Assembly (NCBI GenBank): GCA_024653355.1
Contig: JANLFQ010000001.1
Coordinates: 558,001-622,000 of the forward strand
DNA length: 64,000 bases
Origin: a candidate division WOR-3 bacterium
Lineage (GTDB): Bacteria; Hydrothermota; Tepidihabitantia; Tepidihabitantales; Tepidihabitantaceae
Reading direction: 5' to 3'
Part shown: in pieces, positions 245 through 54,297 of the stretch
How the letters are laid out: the number at the start of each line of letters is the position of its first letter
How positions within the stretch are numbered: the first letter of the stretch is position 1
Translations under genes and position numbers: made by a program
Notes under the pieces: model-generated
What the model saw: only the letters and a program-made list of their open reading frames with translations
What the model was told of the DNA's origin: nothing
Database searches by the model: none

Positions 245-2797
245 CTAACGGGCTAATAGCAAACGAAGGCTGTTGCTTTCGCAATGAGGGCAGGCGCGTT
301 CTTCGGGCTGACCCGGTGTCCAGTGATGAGTTGATTCTTTACCGCAGCGGAGGCATACAAACGACATCTCACCGGCGGTCTTGGGCTCAGTTCGTAAGGT
401 CACCTTGGGTGGATTACTGAGAATTTGCTTTGTCTGCTCAATCTCCTCTGGTGTCACCGACGCCCTGAGCCTTTCCAGTTCCTCCATCGTTTTGACAAAT
501 CGCGGCGCCTGCGCCGCAGAAATCCACTCCAGTTGCAGCCTTTCCGGTCGAATCCCCCACGCCTCAAGTTTATCCCATAGTTTCTCGACCCGACGCTGGG
601 TCTGCCGGTTAGCATTGAGGTAGTGGCAGTCCGCATAGTGACACCCGGAAATGAGAACGACCGGCGCCCCGAGTGCAAACGCCTTGAGCACAAACTTTTC
701 CGCAACCCGGGCGCTGCACATCGTCCGAATCAAAACCTGTGTGGGTGGGTACTGCGACCGTGCCAGCCCAACCGTATCTGATGCCGCATAGGAGCACCAG
801 TGGCAGGCAAACACAATCGCTTTCGACCCGGGTTCTTCTGCCAGCGCCGCCTCAATCTGAGCGATAATCTGTTCGTCCGTGAACTGATGCGCCTCAATCG
901 CTGCAAACCGACACTCGGCCGCACAATTGCCACAGCCGGCACAGACGGCATCAATCGCCTTTGCCGGCGCGCCCCGCTGCCACTCGACCGCTTTGAATGT
1001 ACAGACCGGTGCACACATACCACAGGCACGGCATTTATCGGTTATAACCTCCACCGTATTGGGCTCTGCCGCCAGGGAACCTTGTGCCAGAAGTCGCGCC
1101 GCCCGACCCGCCGCCGCACTTGCTTGGGTCACTGAATCCTTGACATCTTTTGGTCCTTCAGCACACCCGGCATAAAAAACCCCGCGTACCGGCGAATCAA
1201 CCGGTTGCAGTTTCGGGTGTGCCTCGAGCAGGAAACCTTCCGGATGGATTTGCAGCGCCATAAGTTGTTGAATCGGCTTGGCCTCAGGCCTTGGTTTGAC
1301 TCCGGTCGCCAGCACCACCAGTTCCGCAATGTGTTCCTCAACCTTACCGGTTTCGGTGTTTTCCACATAGAGTTTTAGATTTCCCGTTGCCTTATCTTCA
1401 ATCACTTCACCCGGAATCCCGCGAATATAGTTGACACCGAGACGCCGGGAACGCCACAACATCTCTTCAAACCCCTTACTGAAGGCGCGCAGGTCAATGT
1501 AGAAAACTTTGATGTCCATATCCGGGTAATGCTCTTTAAGCACCAGGCTGTCTTTAATTGTGTTCATACAGCAGATGTTGCTGCAGTAGGGCGTACCCTG
1601 TTGCGCACAGCGCGAGCCGACACACTGAATAAAGGCGATACTGTTCGGGCGCCGCCGGTCACTCAGCCGGATGAGTTCACCGCCCGTTGGTCCACCCGAC
1701 GATGCCAGTCGCTCAAACTCCAGCGCCGTTATCACATTTGCCGCCCGACCATAGCCGAATTCGGCGCGGGGCAACGGGTCAAACGGCTCCATTCCGGTGG
1801 CAACGATGATTGCCCCAACTTCAAATTTGAACTCTTTGTCCTGAGCGTTCAGGTCAATGCACTTCTTTTCGCACGCCTGCGCACATTTGCCACAGGCAAT
1901 GGGGTTTAAGCCAAGACAGTCATCGGGATTGAGTACATAAGACGCCGGAATCGCCTGCGGGAACGGCTGGTAAATCGCATGTCGCAACCCAAGCCCTAAA
2001 TTAAACTCATCCGGAACCAGTTGCGGGCAAACCTGGGCACATTCGCCACAGGCGGTGCACTCCCGCTCATCAACAAATCGTGCCTTCTGCCGAACCGTTA
2101 CCTTGAAGTCACCAACATGACCGGCAACTTCTTTGACCTCGGCAAGGGTCAGGAGTTTGATTTTCGGATGCCGACCGACATCCGCCATCTTGGGCGCCAG
2201 TATTCATATCGCACAATCCATCGTCGGATAGGTTTTGTGCAACTGCGCCATCAACCCACCGAGCGACGGTTGACGCTCCACCAGATATACCTGATGACCC
2301 GCATCTGCCAGGTCAAGACTCGCCTGAATTCCGGCAACACCACCGCCAATTACCAGCACCGCATCTTTTATGGGAAAACGACGCGGGCTAAGCGGTTTCA
2401 GTGCCCGTGCTTTTGCCACCGCCATTCGAACAAGACCGCACGCCTTTTTCGTTGCCCGCTCCGGCTCAAGGGCATGAACCCAGGAACACCCTTCCCGGAT
2501 GTTCACCATCTCCATAAGAAACGGATTCAAACCCGCCTGTGCCACGCAGGCACGAAAAGTAGGCTCGTGCATCCTTGGGGTGCAAGCCGCCACCACCACC
2601 CGATTGAGGTTGAATTCGGCAATCGCCTTCTGAATTCCCTTCTGCCCTGGCTCAGAGCAGGTGTAGAGGCTGGTTACCGCATAAACCACATCGGGTAAAG
2701 TTTTGGCGCAATTCACCACCTCTTCAACATTGACGGTGCCGGCGATGTTGGTGCCACACCGGCAGACAAACACGCCGATTCGCGTCTCTTGACTCAT
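245..2797 (-). CDS. hdrA: Selenocysteine-containing HdrA-like subunit with fused MvhD domain
   Basis: HdrA-type flavoprotein, 850 residues if the in-frame TGA at 2204-2206 is read through. Visible in order: the HdrA N-terminal domain with CRCGTN; an FAD-binding VIGGGVAG segment near residue 150; the HdrA signature DCA-x-U-ILAPKM with the TGA at codon 198, where HdrA proteins carry Cys or Sec; an inserted ferredoxin domain ([11 protein letters not shown] near 247, CGKCAQAC near 302); two further 4Fe-4S motifs near 590-630; an MvhD domain ([21 protein letters not shown]); and a C-terminal CxxC...CxxC zinc ribbon. Both sides of the TGA are in one frame with no other interruption, and a SECIS-like hairpin follows it. 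HdrA is the electron-bifurcating FAD subunit of heterodisulfide reductase complexes. It is the last gene of the Kor/Hdr operon, 9 nt after the HdrCB fusion gene. The physiological acceptor is unknown. The alternative, a nonsense mutation splitting the gene, is much less likely. Confidence 0.9.
2165..2206 (-). promoter_or_regulatory. UGA (Sec) codon and candidate bacterial SECIS element
   Basis: In the mRNA the TGA (2206-2204) is followed after 19 nt by an 8-bp stem (2184-2177 paired with 2172-2165, including one U-G wobble) closing a GGTC tetraloop (2176-2173). The UGA-to-loop distance is 27 nt and the loop begins with G. Both agree with the known rules for bacterial SECIS hairpins recognised by SelB, and the loop resembles the GGUC core of the E. 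coli fdhF element. The wobble pair forms only on the mRNA strand. The fold is by eye. Confidence 0.75.
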
Positions 2798-2806
2798 CCC
2801 GTTATT

Positions 2807-4342
2807 CTACTCCTTATCGCTTATAAAATCAATTAAATTCACAACCCGCAGCGCATCTTTGTTACCCCGGTTCAATTGGGCGCAGCGGAGATGAATTTCA
2901 CACCTGCCGCAGCCGGTAATCAGAGTTTCCGCCTGGACCGCCTGCCACTCCTGCAACCGCCGGTCCTGAAGCAGTCTTACCGCCGCTCCACACTCCAGCC
3001 ACGATGTGCCCCCACAACACAACGCCTCGTTACGGTTGTGCTCCATCTCAACCAGCTCAACCCCGTTGACCTGGGCAATCAACTGACGCGGTGCATCTTC
3101 TACCCCTAAATGTCTACTCAGTCGGCACGGGTCATGGTAGGTAACCCGCAATCGCTTCCCATTACCAACGGGTTTAAACCCATGCTCCAGTAAGAACTCA
3201 CTTATATGTCTTAATCTCAACCCGGGCGATTGAATTCCGGCAATACGCGGGTAATCCAGTTTGAATGTCCGCAAACAGTCCGGGCAGAGAAATACCACCT
3301 CTTTCACCCCTGCATCCTGCAATTGATTTAAGTTGTAGCGGGCAAGTTTCTTTACGGTACGGACATCACCCAACCATAACAAATCGTGTCCGCAACAACG
3401 CTCATCAGAAAGCACCACCGGCTCAATCCCCAATCGGTTCATAATCCGTACCGCATTACGCAATGTTTGGACTGGATTCACCTCCAACTCCTTAAACAGC
3501 ACATCAAAATAGGGTGCGCATCCAGTCCAGAGGGCGATTTCACCTTTATCAACAACTCGCAGTTCGGCACCAACCCAGTCCCGCCGGTTCTGAATCAAAG
3601 TCGTTTTTGCCATCATTCTCCCTAAAGTTTGCATAACACCATCGTGTGCCAGCACCGGCTGCGTCCCCTCCTGAAACGCCAGCGCCCTTAACCGCAACAC
3701 CTCTTCCGCAATACTCTTTCCGGAGGGACAAACCGTTTTACACATATCACACCCTAAACAGGCATAAATGACCTTCGTATTCACAACCGTATTTTCGGTC
3801 AACGCCTTTTGCATCAACCGCCGGGGTGAAAAACCAAGACCGGTTCGGGCAACCGGACACACTCCGCTACACCTGCCACATTCAATACATACAAAACCAC
3901 TCTGTTTGACGAACTTTTCAAAATCTTTATCACCGAACTCTTGCTCTAAATTAATCGGTTGTTTGTTAAGAAACTTCTCTTCAACCCTTGCCGTTCTCGC
4001 GAACAAGTCATCAAACGAAACCGGTCCCGACACGGGAACGAATTGAACCTGCTCGGGATTAAACCCCATCAGTCTTAAAATCTGCCGGCTAATTTCAACC
4101 TGTTTTCGGGCATTTTGTGCGCCAATCTCGTGCCGGCACTCCTGCTCCGAACAACCGAAAAGTACAACCCGGTCGGCACCATACTCAAAGGCACGTAATA
4201 TCGAACCAGTTCCGACCTGACCGATACAGGTTACCCTCCGATATCCGAACCCGTTTTTCAACAAAAAATCTTCTGACACCTGTCCGGAAACCCGTTCACA
4301 GACGAAAGCAAAACTCCTGATTGAAGGCAAATTACTTTTCAT
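2807..4342 (-). CDS. MvhD-like / HdrC-HdrB fusion, heterodisulfide-reductase-like Fe-S protein
   Basis: 511-residue fusion. Residues about 1-125 resemble MvhD, but the first Cys pair is reduced (CERV instead of CxxC) while VTC and GCSEQECRHE remain. Two HdrC-type 4Fe-4S motifs follow (CIECGRCSGVCP, CLGCDMCKTVCP). The C-terminal half has two complete CCG motifs (DERCCGH...CPDC and ALCCGG...CGRC), which in HdrB hold the non-cubane clusters that reduce disulfides. The protein is therefore expected to take electrons from HdrA and pass them to a thiol/disulfide or similar acceptor. It overlaps the preceding GltD-like gene by 11 nt. HdrD or GlpC-like functions without a disulfide substrate remain possible. 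Confidence 0.85.
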   Translation of the reverse strand: MKSNLPSIRSFAFVCERVSGQVSEDFLLKNGFGYRRVTCIGQVGTGSILRAFEYGADRVVLFGCSEQECRHEIGAQNARKQVEISRQILRLMGFNPEQVQFVPVSGPVSFDDLFARTARVEEKFLNKQPINLEQEFGDKDFEKFVKQSGFVCIECGRCSGVCPVARTGLGFSPRRLMQKALTENTVVNTKVIYACLGCDMCKTVCPSGKSIAEEVLRLRALAFQEGTQPVLAHDGVMQTLGRMMAKTTLIQNRRDWVGAELRVVDKGEIALWTGCAPYFDVLFKELEVNPVQTLRNAVRIMNRLGIEPVVLSDERCCGHDLLWLGDVRTVKKLARYNLNQLQDAGVKEVVFLCPDCLRTFKLDYPRIAGIQSPGLRLRHISEFLLEHGFKPVGNGKRLRVTYHDPCRLSRHLGVEDAPRQLIAQVNGVELVEMEHNRNEALCCGGTSWLECGAAVRLLQDRRLQEWQAVQAETLITGCGRCEIHLRCAQLNRGNKDALRVVNLIDFISDKE

Positions 4343-6197
4343 CGCTACCGGTAAAAACTGCCGATGCTAATTTGAAAGAACTTTGTAGAGCACCGCTCGG
4401 ACAAACAGGTAAACAGTTACCGCATCCGCGACAACGCTGGTTGTCAACGGCTGCAACCTGAATACCTGCATACCACACCTGCCTGCTAATCGCCTCATGG
4501 GGACAAATCTCAACACACCTTCCGCATCCGCGACACAACTCCTTCTCTACTTTAACAACCAAAGGCTGAATTACCGCTGGAATCGTCTTGTCCCCGCTGC
4601 CTGCATTAACTTGTAACTCCACCGCCAGTTCTTCAACATTATCGGGCAAGACAGTTTCCAGCGAATGAATTCGCATTAGTACCGACTCAGATTTGTCCAC
4701 GGTCTGAACTACCACCTGATGTTTCGGACAGGTCCGATGGCAGCGAACACATTCCCCACAAAAACCGCATCGTAAACAGCGCTCCGCCTCCTGAACCGCC
4801 TGCTCTGGTGTTAACGGTGCCTCAACCTCGGCAAAGATGTTTCGCTTTTCCGGTGCCAGATGTCCTAACTTGACCCTGCTCATGGGCACCGCGGTCAGAA
4901 CCGGAACCTGAACTTCAAGTTGCACTTCAGAAACTGGCGTCGTCTCATCCTCGTTGCTGATAAATTTATGAATCGCCTTTGCACCCCGATGGCCGCTGGC
5001 GATGGCATCAATCACCGTTGCCGGGCCACTCGCAGCATCTCCCCCGACAAAAACCCCAACGGGCAGTTGATTTACATCCTTTTCCACCTTCTGGCCCAGT
5101 GCGGTGATAACCCAATTAGCACCAATCACAAAAAGCGAATCCGGAATCGGTATCGGTTTTCTTCGCCCCGAATCATCGGGCGCGCCCAGCGTATTACGGA
5201 CACATTTCAATCCGCTAACCTTGCCATCCTTATGAACAAACTCTACCGGCTGGGTCAAATATTCAATTCTGACACCCTCTGCCTCTGCCTGGGAAATTTC
5301 CTCTTCATCGGCGGGCATTTCTGTTCGGCTCCGGCGGTAAACAATCCAAACCTCCTCAGCCCCTAACCGCTTTGCCACTCTTGCGGCATCAATCGCCGAA
5401 TTTCCGCCGCCAATCACCAGTACCCTACCGGGCAAATTTTTAATATCGCCGGTAAACGCCATTTTCAAAAATGAAAGGGCGTCTATCACTCCGGCAAGTT
5501 CATCCTCCAGAGCCAGCCCCAGACGCAAGCTTTTCTGACAGCCCGGAGCATAAAACACCGCCGCATAACCATCTTTCAGAAGTTGTGCCGGCTCGTCGAT
5601 TTTCGTCCCGGTAAAAATTTCCACTCCCAATCCAAGAACCGAGTCAATCTCCTGTTCAATAACCGGCCGTGGCAGACGAAAAGGCGGAATACCCCACAAC
5701 AGCATACCACCCGGTTTTTCCTGTGCCTCAAAAATCGTCACCTGATACCCGAACCGGATTAGGTCGTTTGCCGCAGTCAAACCTGCTGGACCAGCACCAA
5801 CAACCGCTACGCGTTGCGACCGTTTAACGGTCTCTTTTGGTAATACCGCCTGTAGTTGATTGACCGCATAATCGGCGATAAAACGTTTCAGGGCTCTGAT
5901 TGCGACCGGTTCATCCAATTCCGCCCGCCGGCACTCTTTCTCACAGGGATGGGTACAGACGCGGCCGCAGATTCCAGGAAAAGGATTGGTCTGTCGCACC
6001 ACCTCCAGCGCCCGGACAAATTCGCCGGCGGCAATTAACCCAACATAAGCCTTGACATTAACACCAGCCGGACAGGCAACCCGACAGGGCGATGGTGGCG
6101 CCGCCACGATTTGAAACTCCCGCTCGCCAACTCGTAAACTCGCCCCCTTCCCATAAAGCATCTCCTTGAAACTCAGCCGTCCCTTTGCCGGGTTCAC
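4332..6197 (-). CDS. GltD-family NAD(P)H/FAD oxidoreductase with C-terminal ferredoxin domain
   Basis: 621 residues. The N-terminal Fe-S domain of glutamate-synthase small subunits is present (CRVACPAGVNV near 38, CGRVCTHPCEKECRR near 75-90), followed by an FAD site (VVGAGPAGL), an NAD(P) site (VIGGGNSAIDAAR) and the GGDAASGPATVIDAIASGHRGA signature in two parts. The C-terminus adds a Cys-rich segment (CLRCGFCGECVRC) and a two-cluster ferredoxin (CRGCGRCVEICP, CRGCGNCLPVCP). Relatives act as NAD(P)H-ferredoxin oxidoreductases, including the bifurcating NfnB. Its place between korC and the Hdr genes suggests that it links NAD(P)H to the Kor/Hdr electron chain. It is not a GltD partner of a glutamate synthase large subunit here; no gltB is near. 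Confidence 0.85.
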   Translation of the reverse strand: MNPAKGRLSFKEMLYGKGASLRVGEREFQIVAAPPSPCRVACPAGVNVKAYVGLIAAGEFVRALEVVRQTNPFPGICGRVCTHPCEKECRRAELDEPVAIRALKRFIADYAVNQLQAVLPKETVKRSQRVAVVGAGPAGLTAANDLIRFGYQVTIFEAQEKPGGMLLWGIPPFRLPRPVIEQEIDSVLGLGVEIFTGTKIDEPAQLLKDGYAAVFYAPGCQKSLRLGLALEDELAGVIDALSFLKMAFTGDIKNLPGRVLVIGGGNSAIDAARVAKRLGAEEVWIVYRRSRTEMPADEEEISQAEAEGVRIEYLTQPVEFVHKDGKVSGLKCVRNTLGAPDDSGRRKPIPIPDSLFVIGANWVITALGQKVEKDVNQLPVGVFVGGDAASGPATVIDAIASGHRGAKAIHKFISNEDETTPVSEVQLEVQVPVLTAVPMSRVKLGHLAPEKRNIFAEVEAPLTPEQAVQEAERCLRCGFCGECVRCHRTCPKHQVVVQTVDKSESVLMRIHSLETVLPDNVEELAVELQVNAGSGDKTIPAVIQPLVVKVEKELCRGCGRCVEICPHEAISRQVWYAGIQVAAVDNQRCRGCGNCLPVCPSGALQSSFKLASAVFTGSDEK

Positions 6198-6733
6198 GCC
6201 CGCCTCTTTTCTATTCCGACCTGATACCCCTTCTCCAGTGCAATGAGATTTTTTTCGAGGAGTCGCGCCGGCAGTATGTCCTGAACCGCTTTAACCAGAG
6301 CCTCCTTGGGCACAACGCCGGTCACCGCAACCAAAAATCCGAGCATCACCATATTGGCGTACATCCGATTTCCAAGCCCCTCGGCAATTCTTGTCGCCGG
6401 AATCGCAAACTCCTTGACCCGGCCCAGGTGGTTATGCGGTCGTACCAGATTTTCCTCCCAGATGAGCACCCCGTCATCCTTCAATGTGGGCTCGAACTTT
6501 TCATAGGCTTCCTGAGACATTGCCACTAAAATGTCTGGCGCTGTCAGATAAGGATAAAGCACCCGCTCCTCAGAAATAATCAACTGTGCCGAACAGGCAC
6601 CCCCTCTTGCTTCGGGACCGAAACTTTGCGTCAGGGTGGCATACTTATTATCATAAAGCGTTGCCGCACGGCCTAACACCATCCCCATCATTATAATCCC
6701 CTGGCCGCCAAATCCGGAAAGTTTAATCTCCAT
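6194..6733 (-). CDS. korC: 2-oxoacid:ferredoxin oxidoreductase, gamma subunit
   Basis: About 179 residues, beginning MEIKLSGFGGQG. The GFGGQG(I) loop and the SFGPEARGG segment are diagnostic of the gamma (CoA-side) subunit of KGOR/VOR-type enzymes. I chose the ATG at 6733 because family members start directly before the GFGGQG loop; a start 27 nt further upstream is open but adds an unusual extension. The gene overlaps the 3' end of korB by 11 nt and the start of the GltD-like gene by 4 nt, so the operon is translationally coupled. Confidence 0.88.
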   Translation of the reverse strand: MEIKLSGFGGQGIIMMGMVLGRAATLYDNKYATLTQSFGPEARGGACSAQLIISEERVLYPYLTAPDILVAMSQEAYEKFEPTLKDDGVLIWEENLVRPHNHLGRVKEFAIPATRIAEGLGNRMYANMVMLGFLVAVTGVVPKEALVKAVQDILPARLLEKNLIALEKGYQVGIEKRRA

Positions 6734-7613
6734 CTTCCATTGGTCCTTGATACGGTACAAACTTTTCGCCCACAGTCGTGCGCAAAAATTGGTTCATCAT
6801 CTCAAGATAGGTGGGCTTTTGCTTCTGAACAAACCTTCCGACAACGATCGGACCTTGATAGGTTATTTCACACTCCCGGGTGTCAATATCATTCCTGACC
6901 ACCGACTTTTCCTGATAATACTTCACAATCTCAAGGCCCGAACCCAACTGATTACGCCGGCCATAAACCGTCGGGCAGGGCGAAATCACCTCAACAAAAC
7001 TGAATCCTGAGTGCATTAAAGCCTCTTTGAATGCTTGTGTCATCTGGCGGACATGAAGCACCGTCCAGCGTGCCACATAGGTTGCCCCGCAGGAGTCAAC
7101 AAGAAATGGAATGTTAAACGGGTGCTCAAAACTGCCGTAAGGCGCCGTCGTCAACTTCGCGCCCTGGGGTGTCGTTGGTCCAAACTGACCGCCCGTCATC
7201 GCATAGTTGAAGTTGTTTACACAGATTACGGTCAAATCCATATTGCGCCGCGCCGCATGGATAAGGTGGTTGCCGCCAATCGACACCAAGTCACCGTCGC
7301 CGGAGATAATCACCACCTTCAGTTGCGGATTGCCCAATTTTAAACCAATCGCAAACGGTATCGCCCGGCCATGGGTGGTGTGAAATGAGTCGAGGTTCAC
7401 GTAACCAGCGGCGCGGCCCGTGCAACCGATACCGGACACAACTACCAGGTCCTGCCGGGGAATTGCACTCTCCCGCACCGCCGTGAGAAAAGAGTTCAAA
7501 ACAATACCCAGGCCACAGGTCGGACACCAGATATGGGGTATGCGGTCCACCCTTAACAGGTCGTCAAGCGGGTGCTGTTCCAGTCCGGCGATATTGACCG
7601 TCGCATCACTCAT
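6723..7613 (-). CDS. korB: 2-oxoacid:ferredoxin oxidoreductase, beta subunit
   Basis: 296 residues. It contains the beta-subunit CxxC near residue 30 (WCPTCGLG), the thiamine-pyrophosphate motif GDGDLVSIGGNH followed by the VNNFNYAMTGGQ stretch, and further Cys residues. It binds TPP and a 4Fe-4S cluster and carries out decarboxylation of the 2-oxoacid with the alpha subunit. Together with korDAC it forms a four-subunit enzyme most like 2-oxoglutarate:ferredoxin oxidoreductase. A branched-chain 2-oxoacid substrate cannot be excluded from sequence alone. Confidence 0.9.
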   Translation of the reverse strand: MSDATVNIAGLEQHPLDDLLRVDRIPHIWCPTCGLGIVLNSFLTAVRESAIPRQDLVVVSGIGCTGRAAGYVNLDSFHTTHGRAIPFAIGLKLGNPQLKVVIISGDGDLVSIGGNHLIHAARRNMDLTVICVNNFNYAMTGGQFGPTTPQGAKLTTAPYGSFEHPFNIPFLVDSCGATYVARWTVLHVRQMTQAFKEALMHSGFSFVEVISPCPTVYGRRNQLGSGLEIVKYYQEKSVVRNDIDTRECEITYQGPIVVGRFVQKQKPTYLEMMNQFLRTTVGEKFVPYQGPMEDGD

Positions 7614-8764
7614 CGCGCACTCTCCATTATCGCCTCAAAGATGTTTTTCGGGTCATGAACCCAACCACCACAATGGGGAACATGTCGCGTCTGCGCCCGC
7701 CCCCCAACCACCCTTTGCAGCTCCAGATACATTTGACCCAGATTTATCTCGGGCATAACAAACGCCTTTACTCTCTCTGCCAGTTGTTTAATCTTACTTT
7801 CCGGGAAGGGCCAGACCGTAATCAACCGCAACATTCCGACCTTAACGCCGCGTGCCCGGGCGTCTTCAATCGCCTTGAACGCCACCCGGGCGCTGATTCC
7901 GTAAGCAACAACAACCACCTCGGCATCATTTAGTTGGTACTCATCTACGATAACTATTTTCTCCCGATTCTTGCGGATTTTTTCAACCAGATGGGTAACG
8001 CACCAGTTCTGACATTCGGCATTGATCACCGGATAACCCCGTTCATCATGGGTCAATCCGGTAATATGAATCCGGTAATCCTTTCCTGCCCGGACCATTG
8101 CTGGTACACCATCCTCATCCGGTTTAAAAGGACGATACTGTTCTCGCGGACCACGATACCACCTTCTTGGTACCAAACGGATTTTATCCGGCTCCGGGAT
8201 GACCACCTTTTCGGTCATATGCCCTACACATTCATCCATCATAAACAAAACCGGGACTCGAAATTGTTCGGCAAAATTAAAACAGGTAATCGTCAAATCG
8301 AAACACTCCTGGGGTGAAGCCGGTGCCAGAGCGATAATCTCATAATCACCGTGTGAACCCCACCGGGCTTGCATCATATCTTGTTGCCCGGTTAAAGTGG
8401 GTAATCCAGTTGAAGGACCACCCCGCTGGACATTAACTACGACACAGGGAGTTTCGGTCATCACCCCGAGCCCGATATTCTCCTGCATTAACGAAAAACC
8501 AGGACCCGAGGTAACGGTCATCGCTTTAGTTCCTGCCCATGCTGCACCCAGCACCGCCGCCATTGAAGCCAGTTCGTCTTCCATCTGAATAAATGTGCCA
8601 CCGACCATCGGAAACCGCTGGGCAATTCGTTCCGCAATCTCGGTGGAAGGGGTTATTGGATAACCGGCAAAGAAACGACAACCAGCCACAATCGCCCCCT
8701 CAGCACAGGCGTGGTCACCATCAAGAAAATGTGCACCGGTCAGCACAACATCACTGTTCTTCAC
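7610..8764 (-). CDS. korA: 2-oxoacid:ferredoxin oxidoreductase, alpha subunit
   Basis: 384 residues. Typical alpha-subunit segments are FAGYPITPSTEIAE, MEDELASMAAVLGA and TSGPGFSLMQENIG, then RGGPSTGLPT. The start is a GTG with GGAGG six bases upstream; it overlaps the end of korD by 14 nt and its own end overlaps korB by 4 nt. The alpha subunit holds the 2-oxoacid and CoA binding region. Known enzymes of this family produce acyl-CoA and reduced ferredoxin, or run in reverse as CoA-dependent carboxylases. Confidence 0.92.
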   Translation of the reverse strand: MKNSDVVLTGAHFLDGDHACAEGAIVAGCRFFAGYPITPSTEIAERIAQRFPMVGGTFIQMEDELASMAAVLGAAWAGTKAMTVTSGPGFSLMQENIGLGVMTETPCVVVNVQRGGPSTGLPTLTGQQDMMQARWGSHGDYEIIALAPASPQECFDLTITCFNFAEQFRVPVLFMMDECVGHMTEKVVIPEPDKIRLVPRRWYRGPREQYRPFKPDEDGVPAMVRAGKDYRIHITGLTHDERGYPVINAECQNWCVTHLVEKIRKNREKIVIVDEYQLNDAEVVVVAYGISARVAFKAIEDARARGVKVGMLRLITVWPFPESKIKQLAERVKAFVMPEINLGQMYLELQRVVGGRAQTRHVPHCGGWVHDPKNIFEAIMESAR

Positions 8765-9050
8765 CCGTGCCTCCGGTCATTACCTTCTCGGATTCCTGCT
8801 CCGGCGTTGTCCAGATAGCGAACTCGGCACAGATAGCAGTACACAATCCGCAATTAACGCAACGCTCAGGGTATTTGACAATCGGCGGGTGATAACCCCG
8901 CCGATTGAAATCGGTTGATGCTTCAAGTACCTGTTTCGGACAAAAGGTAATACAGAAACCGCATCCCTTGCACCGCTCAATCAGGATGTGAACAATACCA
9001 TGGGGCGGCTTCTTTTGCTCCGCATCTAAAGGTTTGCGCCACAGTTTCAT
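8751..9050 (-). CDS. korD: 2-oxoacid:ferredoxin oxidoreductase, ferredoxin (delta) subunit
   Basis: 99 residues with two 4Fe-4S motifs, CKGCGFCITFCP and CVNCGLCTAICA, as in KorD/VorD. It passes electrons from KorAB to soluble ferredoxin. It is the first gene of the operon. The ATG at 9050 lies only 15 nt from a consensus -10 box and has no Shine-Dalgarno site, so the mRNA is expected to have a leader of only about 8 nt. Confidence 0.9.
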   Translation of the reverse strand: MKLWRKPLDAEQKKPPHGIVHILIERCKGCGFCITFCPKQVLEASTDFNRRGYHPPIVKYPERCVNCGLCTAICAEFAIWTTPEQESEKVMTGGTGEEQ

Positions 9051-49397: not shown

Positions 49398-49492
49398 TGG
49401 CGGAGGCGGGTAGGAATCGAACCTACCGGTCCACTTATCGCAGACCATACGGATTTGAAGTCCGCCAGGCACACCAGCACCCATCCGCCTCC
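49398..49492 (-). tRNA. selC: Selenocysteine tRNA (anticodon TCA)
   Basis: 95 nt with encoded CCA. An 8-bp acceptor stem (GGAGGCGG with CCGCCTCC) and a 5-bp T stem (GTAGG with CCTAC) give the 8+5 arrangement of bacterial tRNA-Sec. The anticodon loop CTTCAAA has anticodon TCA, the variable arm is long (GGTC...GACC stem) and the discriminator is G. This cannot be a suppressor tRNA-Ser, because its acceptor and D arms have the Sec form. It supports the reading of TGA as Sec in hdrA. Confidence 0.95.
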
Positions 49493-52089: not shown

Positions 52090-54297
52090 ATGCGTATCAT
52101 TCTGTCCCTTCTATCCCTCAGTACAATTGTCTTTGCCCGGTGGACGGCTATCGGACCTGCCGGTGGCCCGGTTTACTCCGGTGGAATCAGCCGAACCAAT
52201 CCCCCTGTAATCTACTTTTCACCTTACGCCTCTCCAACAAAACTGTTGAAATCAACCGACGCGGGCACAACCTGGGAGTTCACCAACGGCACTCTCAGCA
52301 CCTATCCAAGAGAAATCGTGGTCCATCCGCACAACCCTGATATCGTTTACGCCCTGACCGGTTCCGCCATTTACAAAACCACAAATGGTGGTAGTTCCTG
52401 GACTCTCAATTCGGTTCCAGCAAGTCACTACTTTTACACCTTTACCATCAATCCCCTAAACCCGGATGAACTTTTCGCCGCCGGGTACAACTACACTGGT
52501 GGCTCTGCCCGATTGGCATTTGCTCGCAGCACCAATGCCGGTGTCAGCTGGACAACAACCATCTGTGATACCACACCTTCATCTTATGGTTACTCAATCG
52601 CCGTTGACCCGGTTGACACAAGTGTAATATATGTCGGGGGCTATCGCAGCACCGGGGGCACAACCACGCTCTATCGGTCATTTGACCGGGGAGAAACCTG
52701 GGAAGAAATTAATCTTGCTATCACCGGCTACTACCCCTATGCGCTCCACATCAACCCTGCAAACAACAACATTATCCTCATCGCCCCTTACACGAGCGGA
52801 ATATACCGTTCCACCGACCGGGGCGCAACTTGGACCCGGACCGCAATCATCACCAGCGTCTACCGTATTGCCTCTGCCGCCGGCGAACCGGCAACCGTTT
52901 ATGCCACAAACAGCAGTGGTATCTATAAGAGCACCGACGCCGGTATCACCTGGACAAGAATTGGAACTGGCGTGCTCGGTACACCCAACTACTGTCTGCT
53001 GACAAACCCTGTTGACCCGGGCACCGTTTACTTTGGAACGAAGGTTGGGTTCTACCGTTCTACCGACTACGGCGTTACCTGGGAGAATACGACAAATACA
53101 ATTTCCTTTAATAAAACCACCGTAATCGCCCTTGCCTCGGACAACGCTACCGTCTATACCGAATGCCTTGACAACGCCATCTACCGTTCAACTGACAACG
53201 GCGCCTCCTGGGAACGTTGTCCGGATTTTCTCTCCTGCGGCAACATCTGCGGCATCGCCGTGCACCCTTCTGACCCTCAAACCGTGTGGGCGCTTGAAGG
53301 CTCCGGTTGAGGCAACGCTGAGCTCTTTAAGAGCACAGACGGCGGGTCCGTCTGGACACAGGTTGAAAGTTATCTGGTTGATGGTGCTGCCATCGCCATT
53401 TCGCCCCACAATCCCGATATCATCTTCAGCGCCGGTTTTGGTTCCATCAACGGTGCCTATCGCATCCAGACCTCTTACACTACAAATGGCGGCAGCGTCT
53501 GGCACCACGACACCCTGGAAGATTCTATCGCCCGTGTTAATGCCCTGATTTTTGACCCCTATGACTCAAACCGCATCCTGATGGGCGGCGACTCAATGTA
53601 CTCCTACAAACTCCTTCTGGTAAGCACTGACCTGGGCAACACCTGGCGCCACATTGGCAATAACTTAACGGGTTCGATTTACTGCCTTGCTGCAGTACCC
53701 ACCACCCCGGGTGCGTTTTTCGCCGGCACCAGTCAGGGACTGTTTTTGTCTACTGACGGTGGCAACAACTGGACACGCACCGGCACATTCACCTATGTCA
53801 AAGCGGTCTGTGTCCATCCGGAAAATGAAAGCATCGTCTATGCCGGCACCAACAACGGCGTTTATCTCACCACTGACCGTGGCACGGTCTGGCAACAGAT
53901 TAACGAAGGATTACTTAACCTTAATGTCGTTGCGCTGACCCTACACAGCGGTGAAAATCCCACAGTGTTCGCCGGTACCAGCGGCGCGGGAATTTTTACC
54001 ACCTCGCCACCAACCGGCATCGCTCATCAAACACAAACAGCGTTACGGACGCTCAAACTAACACCCAACCCCTCTCGCGGGTTTATTAGGCTAATCGGCT
54101 TAACCCGTAGCGAAAACGGCATCTCCTGTTCTGTCTATGACCGTAGCGGGCGCCTCCTGCTTTCAACAACACCCCAACCAGCATCGGATAACAACACCTG
54201 GCTCCTCGATTTGCACCACTTACCCTCAGGCACTTACTTCCTCGGTATTAAAGATGGTCAGAAAACGGTGTTCCAGCCATTAATAATCTCCAAATAG
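52090..54297 (+). pseudogene. BNR/sortilin-type repeat surface protein with Por sorting domain, in-frame TGA
   Basis: 735 codons from a signal peptide (about 1-16) through BNR repeats with the recurring KSTDGGxxW / RSTDxGxTW motif, about every 45 residues, to a C-terminal Por sorting domain (LTPNPSRGFI...LPSGTYFLG). One TGA interrupts the frame at 53308-53310, within a repeat (EGSG-stop-GNAELFKSTDGG); the frame is otherwise open on both sides. No SECIS-like hairpin follows, so selenocysteine is unlikely. It may be a recent nonsense mutation, strain variation or an assembly error. A protein stopped at residue 406 would lack the sorting domain and could not be retained by the Por system. Confidence 0.8.

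Follow-up and report, generated by a model that had tools for sequence, protein, structure and literature searches.

The window analyzed here, a stretch of 64,000 nucleotides from a bacterial genome of 1.88 Mb that is 98% complete, carries near its start an hdrA gene whose reading frame of 850 codons contains a single internal stop, a TGA at codon 198. Upstream of it, on the same strand, lie the korDABC genes, a gene for a GltD-like flavoprotein and a gene fusing MvhD with HdrC and HdrB (table 1). When the TGA is read through, a domain search places an MvhD (FlpD) domain at the C-terminus of the protein (PF02662, residues 661-775), which also passes, narrowly, the cut-off of the NCBIfam HdrA2 model NF040770 (1122.7 bits against 1100). 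These results bear out the initial annotation in its coordinates and in its reading of one continuous hdrA frame interrupted by a single TGA and of an HdrA fused to MvhD. The same annotation had foreseen that automated procedures would split the gene, and standard ORF calling with table 11 indeed returns two genes, at 2204-2797 and 245-2188; the read-through frame thus corrects the annotation, since gene callers would cut Sec-containing HdrA into two pieces.

Table 1. Features of the window considered in this work, with the basis of each assignment.
Feature	Position	Strand	Basis
hdrA-mvhD, with UGA198 read through: predicted 850-aa Sec-containing HdrA + MvhD	245..2797	-	Frame, domains
UGA codon 198, predicted to be read as Sec, CxxU pair with Cys195	2204..2206	-	Relatives, Cys homologues
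SECIS-like hairpin, 8 bp, GGUC loop, 27 nt 3' of UGA	2165..2184	-	Comparison of relatives
MvhD-HdrC-HdrB fusion	2807..4342	-	Domains; conserved neighbour
GltD/NfnB-like NAD(P)H flavoprotein with ferredoxin tail	4332..6197	-	Domains; conserved neighbour
2-Oxoacid:ferredoxin oxidoreductase gamma (KorC)	6194..6760	-	Domains; conserved neighbour
2-Oxoacid:ferredoxin oxidoreductase beta (KorB)	6723..7613	-	Domains; conserved neighbour
2-Oxoacid:ferredoxin oxidoreductase alpha (KorA)	7610..8764	-	Domains; conserved neighbour
2-Oxoacid:ferredoxin oxidoreductase delta, ferredoxin (KorD)	8751..9050	-	Domains; conserved neighbour
tRNA-Sec (selC)	49398..49492	-	ARAGORN; Rfam RF01852, 74.2 bits
BNR/Sortilin-type beta-propeller, type IX secretion tail	52090-54297	+	In-frame TGA 53308-53310, codon 407
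Two SECIS-like hairpins of the propeller gene	53322-53334 and 53336-53354	+	Covariation

The simplest account of codon 198 would be that it is a true stop, so that hdrA is a pseudogene, contains a sequencing error or represents two genes coding for 197 and 647 residues, an account with which the two ORFs of table 11 and the presence of an ATG at 2188, soon after the TGA, would agree. The comparison with relatives makes this extremely improbable. The host belongs to the phylum that includes Ca. Stahlbacteria (WOR-3/TA06 lineage), and two genomes of the phylum set that we used (147 genomes) could be named by identical DNA, G082 being JAUWLY010000025 (Ca. Stahlbacteria) and G074 being LJNI01000128 (candidate division TA06 DG_78). 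In a phylum-wide search all close homologues covering the site had TGA at this codon, amounting to dozens of relatives, all uncultured bacteria; in these independent assemblies the codon is identical, always TGA and never TAA or TAG, in phase and free of gaps. The HdrA-MvhD of the congener G111 is 93% identical and most of its codon changes, both before and after the TGA, are synonymous, while homologues of the Cys form are continuous and carry Cys exactly at this position. The codons around the site are nearly fixed in the Sec forms; the corresponding codons vary in Cys homologues.

A conserved in-frame TGA would also be predicted if a suppressor or a reassigned code had UGA read as Cys or Trp. 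Against this reading, which we regard as having next to no likelihood, the genes neighbouring hdrA are terminated by TGA and have none inside, so that UGA is not globally reassigned, and the host possesses the machinery for Sec. The tRNA-Sec gene that the initial annotation had reported 47 kb from hdrA is present, and the search for selA, selB and selD that it had proposed retrieved selA (553 bits), selB (387 bits) and two selD genes, all above curated cut-offs. One selD adjoins selB and is itself of the Sec form, with UGA at the active-site position (TCAGUASK; G000:C3:221946-222854, L009); the other is a separate Cys form (GCAGKAC; G000:C3:28006-28923, L008). No match above cut-off was obtained for formate dehydrogenase. 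Across the phylum, selA is found in 29 of the 33 genomes that have the Sec fusion versus none of the 7 that have the closest Cys fusions (Fisher p 1.8e-5, related genomes not being independent); the four Sec-fusion genomes without a selA match are three draft MAGs and G076, a single contig of 90% completeness.

Further evidence comes from the RNA following the codon. In bacteria the loop of the SECIS element lies about 16-37 nt 3' of the UGA, and the hairpin found here, CGGAUGUC-GGUC-GGCAUCCG (2184-2165; 5' arm 2184-2177, loop 2176-2173, 3' arm 2172-2165), has its loop within this range. Its fold energy is unremarkable with respect to shuffled sequences (z -1.4), and 8 bp are reached by 1.7% of synonymous variants; fold energy by itself was therefore dropped as an argument, and the evidence for the hairpin resides in its conservation. 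All seven core pairs are retained in 24/24 distinct CxxU sequences, whereas the 12 CxxC homologues have three pairs at most, none of them (0/12) forming the complete core. The hairpin that had been described at SECIS distance is thus borne out, and its restriction to Sec forms is a further argument against reassignment of UGA. A genome-wide scan with the loose pattern TGA-N-GGTC gave thousands of chance matches and was uninformative.

Sequencing error, pseudogene and code reassignment are accordingly rejected on the combined basis of TGA conservation, synonymous changes, sel genes and hairpin distribution. Judged from these sequence comparisons, the hdrA TGA is a selenocysteine codon and the gene a real selenoprotein, because the TGA is kept, the hairpin tracks the CxxU form, the sel machinery is present and selA co-occurs with Sec-HdrA. 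The earlier proposal of a Sec form of HdrA in this bacterium is therefore supported, and none of the findings named in advance as contradicting it appeared among those checked. From the conservation of the sequence, SelB with Sec-tRNA would decode UGA198 as Sec, steered by the GGUC hairpin just 3' of the codon.

With regard to the role of this residue, U198 aligns without gaps with C197 of Methanothermococcus thermolithotrophicus HdrA (PDB 5odc), matching the Cys position of HdrA homologues as the initial annotation had expected, and a non-standard residue, X, in 9sfi_A aligns with U198, consistent with Sec. According to published comparative work, Cys197 binds the N-terminal 4Fe-4S cluster carried by the second HdrA of the dimer (PMC9012536), and a review describes the Sec residue of heterodisulfide reductases as an Fe-S cluster ligand (PMC9499178); by this homology Sec198 is probably a ligand of the partner's N-terminal 4Fe-4S cluster. 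It would replace Cys197 in reaching across the HdrA dimer to this cluster, on the route from FAD to ferredoxin, and in the place of a ligand Cys its selenolate would tune or stabilise the inter-subunit cluster. One could instead envisage that Sec is mainly redox active, the CxxU pair forming a selenenylsulfide that takes electrons from FAD as in thioredoxin reductase. The pair does sit in a thioredoxin-reductase-like domain, and in some relatives both positions can be Sec, a feature not accounted for if residue 198 acts purely as a ligand; the structural account and the review just cited speak against this possibility, which we consider unlikely though far from negligible. Alignment to 5odc shows that the residues linked to bifurcation (E356 and K409 in PMC12054007) are kept as E362 and K415, as are the cysteines of the FAD-proximal cluster (C392, C405, C409 and C410).

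The gene order Kor-GltD-(MvhD)HdrCB-HdrA/MvhD is met again within the family and at distant loci of the UxxU form described below. The HdrB and HdrC partners of HdrA are present in the adjacent MvhD-HdrCB fusion, their partnership being deduced from the operon. This fusion is one protein here; in several relatives the best-matching pieces are separate, MvhD not being joined to HdrCB. Since the operon holds Kor, a GltD/NfnB-like flavoprotein and MvhD-HdrCB, gene order and domains suggest, as the most economical reading, a likely complex of Kor, GltD, HdrBC and HdrA that would perform flavin-based electron bifurcation or confurcation among ferredoxin reduced with 2-oxoacids, NAD(P)H and, at the HdrB site, an acceptor that may be of the disulfide type or another compound. 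The whole interpretation, namely a Sec-containing HdrA-MvhD produced by hairpin-directed SelB decoding, with Sec198 as a probable cluster ligand in a likely bifurcating complex encoded by the operon, appears to us very probable.

Other HdrA-like proteins occur in the host and its relatives. The host genome has a second Hdr cluster (G000:C4:71886-88318, L097) with several HdrA-like proteins, one of which has an inserted GltD domain and resembles 'type III' HdrA (PMC12054007). Some HdrA/MvhD-like matches on contig C4 are flagged for in-frame TGA, but the two MvhD domains there are without internal stop, and the flagged TGAs thus look like gene ends. In some relatives the main HdrA has beside it another HdrA-like protein, which includes a GltD-like segment and has a CxxU codon followed by a hairpin (L045 4853 (+), L048 6544 (+), L083 1176 (+)), so these relatives would have Sec in two kinds of HdrA.

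In 8 of the 30 loci first retrieved hdrA contains two TGAs, giving D-U-A-I-U, the UxxU pair (L036-L043, L044-L059) having both residues encoded by UGA with the codons six nucleotides apart. A pattern scan of the GTDB r220 collection, allowing Lys or Arg, returned 16 UxxU contigs, all true HdrA and all with PRM rather than PKM, which are labelled Stahlbacteria, TA06, Cloacimonadota, Neomarinimicrobiota, Gemmatimonadota or Deltaproteobacteria, or are unnamed. All 16 have an extra hairpin directly after the second UGA; all of its base pairs can form in 17/17 distinct UxxU sequences, where one pair shows a compensatory change from C-G to G-C, and in no CxxU sequence can they all form. Its loop lies 16 nt after the first UGA and only 7 nt after the second, which, given the usual spacing, leaves the first as the only codon that it can serve. 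The conserved downstream hairpin follows at 27 nt after the second UGA and is weakened in three UxxU sequences. We infer that both UGAs are decoded as Sec: the first of the tandem hairpins would serve the first UGA and then unwind as the ribosome arrives at the second, where the other hairpin would direct Sec insertion, and the constraint that the first hairpin places on the RNA has apparently imposed the change from Lys to Arg (PKM to PRM) in HdrA.

In quick trees constructed with the Sec sites masked, UxxU sequences form one side of a branch next to the CxxU forms (SH-aLRT 93 and 88), a topology that fits a stepwise gain of Sec and does not amount to proof of it. We find it probable that the CxxU form of the window represents the single-Sec stage of the lineage that yielded UxxU, with tandem hairpins, one per UGA, and an exchange of PKM for PRM forced at the RNA level. 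The table of a 2026 review (PMC13188914) gives CxxU, with a single Sec, as the only form of HdrA, and a literature search covering few subscription journals turned up no publication that mentions UxxU HdrA or Stahlbacteria selenoproteins; an HdrA with two Sec residues and SECIS-like hairpins in tandem is apparently undescribed. The forms CxxC, CxxU and UxxU make up a natural series at the Fe-S ligand site of a single enzyme, in which one can test the advantage of selenium over sulfur for ligating a cluster and the manner in which two neighbouring UGAs can both be decoded as Sec in bacteria.

The same window contains another gene with an in-frame TGA, coding for a secreted beta-propeller. Its homologues were found in the phylum at more than 80 places in 34 genomes, most of them with exactly one in-frame TGA. 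When the motif EGxGUGxxELxxSTxGGxxW was searched allowing Cys or Sec, the codon was TGA in all 36 distinct motif-bearing sequences; in a distant paralogue without TGA, the segment bearing it is absent. The two hairpins following the codon show, among 26 sequences, double-sided changes at six pairs versus 1.4 expected from shuffling, and slid controls fail. Eight genomes of the UxxU group yielded no member of the family, and the terms BNR, sortilin, sialidase and propeller are absent from the text of the 2026 selenoprotein review (PMC13188914). By its sequence pattern the TGA-containing propeller is a candidate for a new family of extracellular selenoproteins, a novelty that is separate from Sec-HdrA and probably stronger.

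The initial annotation was correct in recognizing Sec-HdrA in a bacterium but overstated its novelty, for bacterial Sec-HdrA has been known since 2006, beyond methanogens (PMC1794560, PMC5029168): it was listed then for 16 bacterial genes (PMC1794560), reported in Desulfobacterium in 2009 (PMC2702500) and included in the table of a 2016 survey with the figures 42 and 103, which we read as organisms and genes (PMC5029168). Fusion of HdrA with MvhD is equally known, as type Ia or HdrA2 (PMC12054007). Because both traits are already published, the predicted Sec HdrA-MvhD of the window is not a new kind of selenoprotein; rather, it extends a known selenoprotein of energy metabolism to a poorly studied, uncultured phylum. 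The published bacterial forms (Syntrophobacter, Syntrophus, Desulfotalea, Desulfobacterium, Moorella and others; PMC1794560, PMC2702500, PMC5029168) share the same CxxU Sec, the bacterial Sec machinery and a location in energy-metabolism operons with MvhD. In their operons, however, MvhD/FrhD is reported to have a gene of its own, frequently accompanied by hydrogenase genes, whereas in the window MvhD is fused, the neighbours are kor and gltD and the phylum is different. HdrA2 of Methanosarcina acetivorans (type Ia; PMC12054007; NF040770) has the same C-terminal MvhD fusion and differs from the protein of the window, which has the predicted Sec at 198, is encoded in a bacterial Kor-GltD-HdrBC operon and is not expected to use F420. 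Finally, the HdrA core (1-650) of HdrABC-MvhAGD (PDB 5odc) aligns end to end with HdrA of the window and shares its cluster and bifurcation residues, with Cys at the place of Sec198; in contrast to that system, the operon of the window is without MvhAG hydrogenase genes, CoM-S-S-CoB is not expected, and the likely partners are 2-oxoacid-reduced ferredoxin and NAD(P)H.
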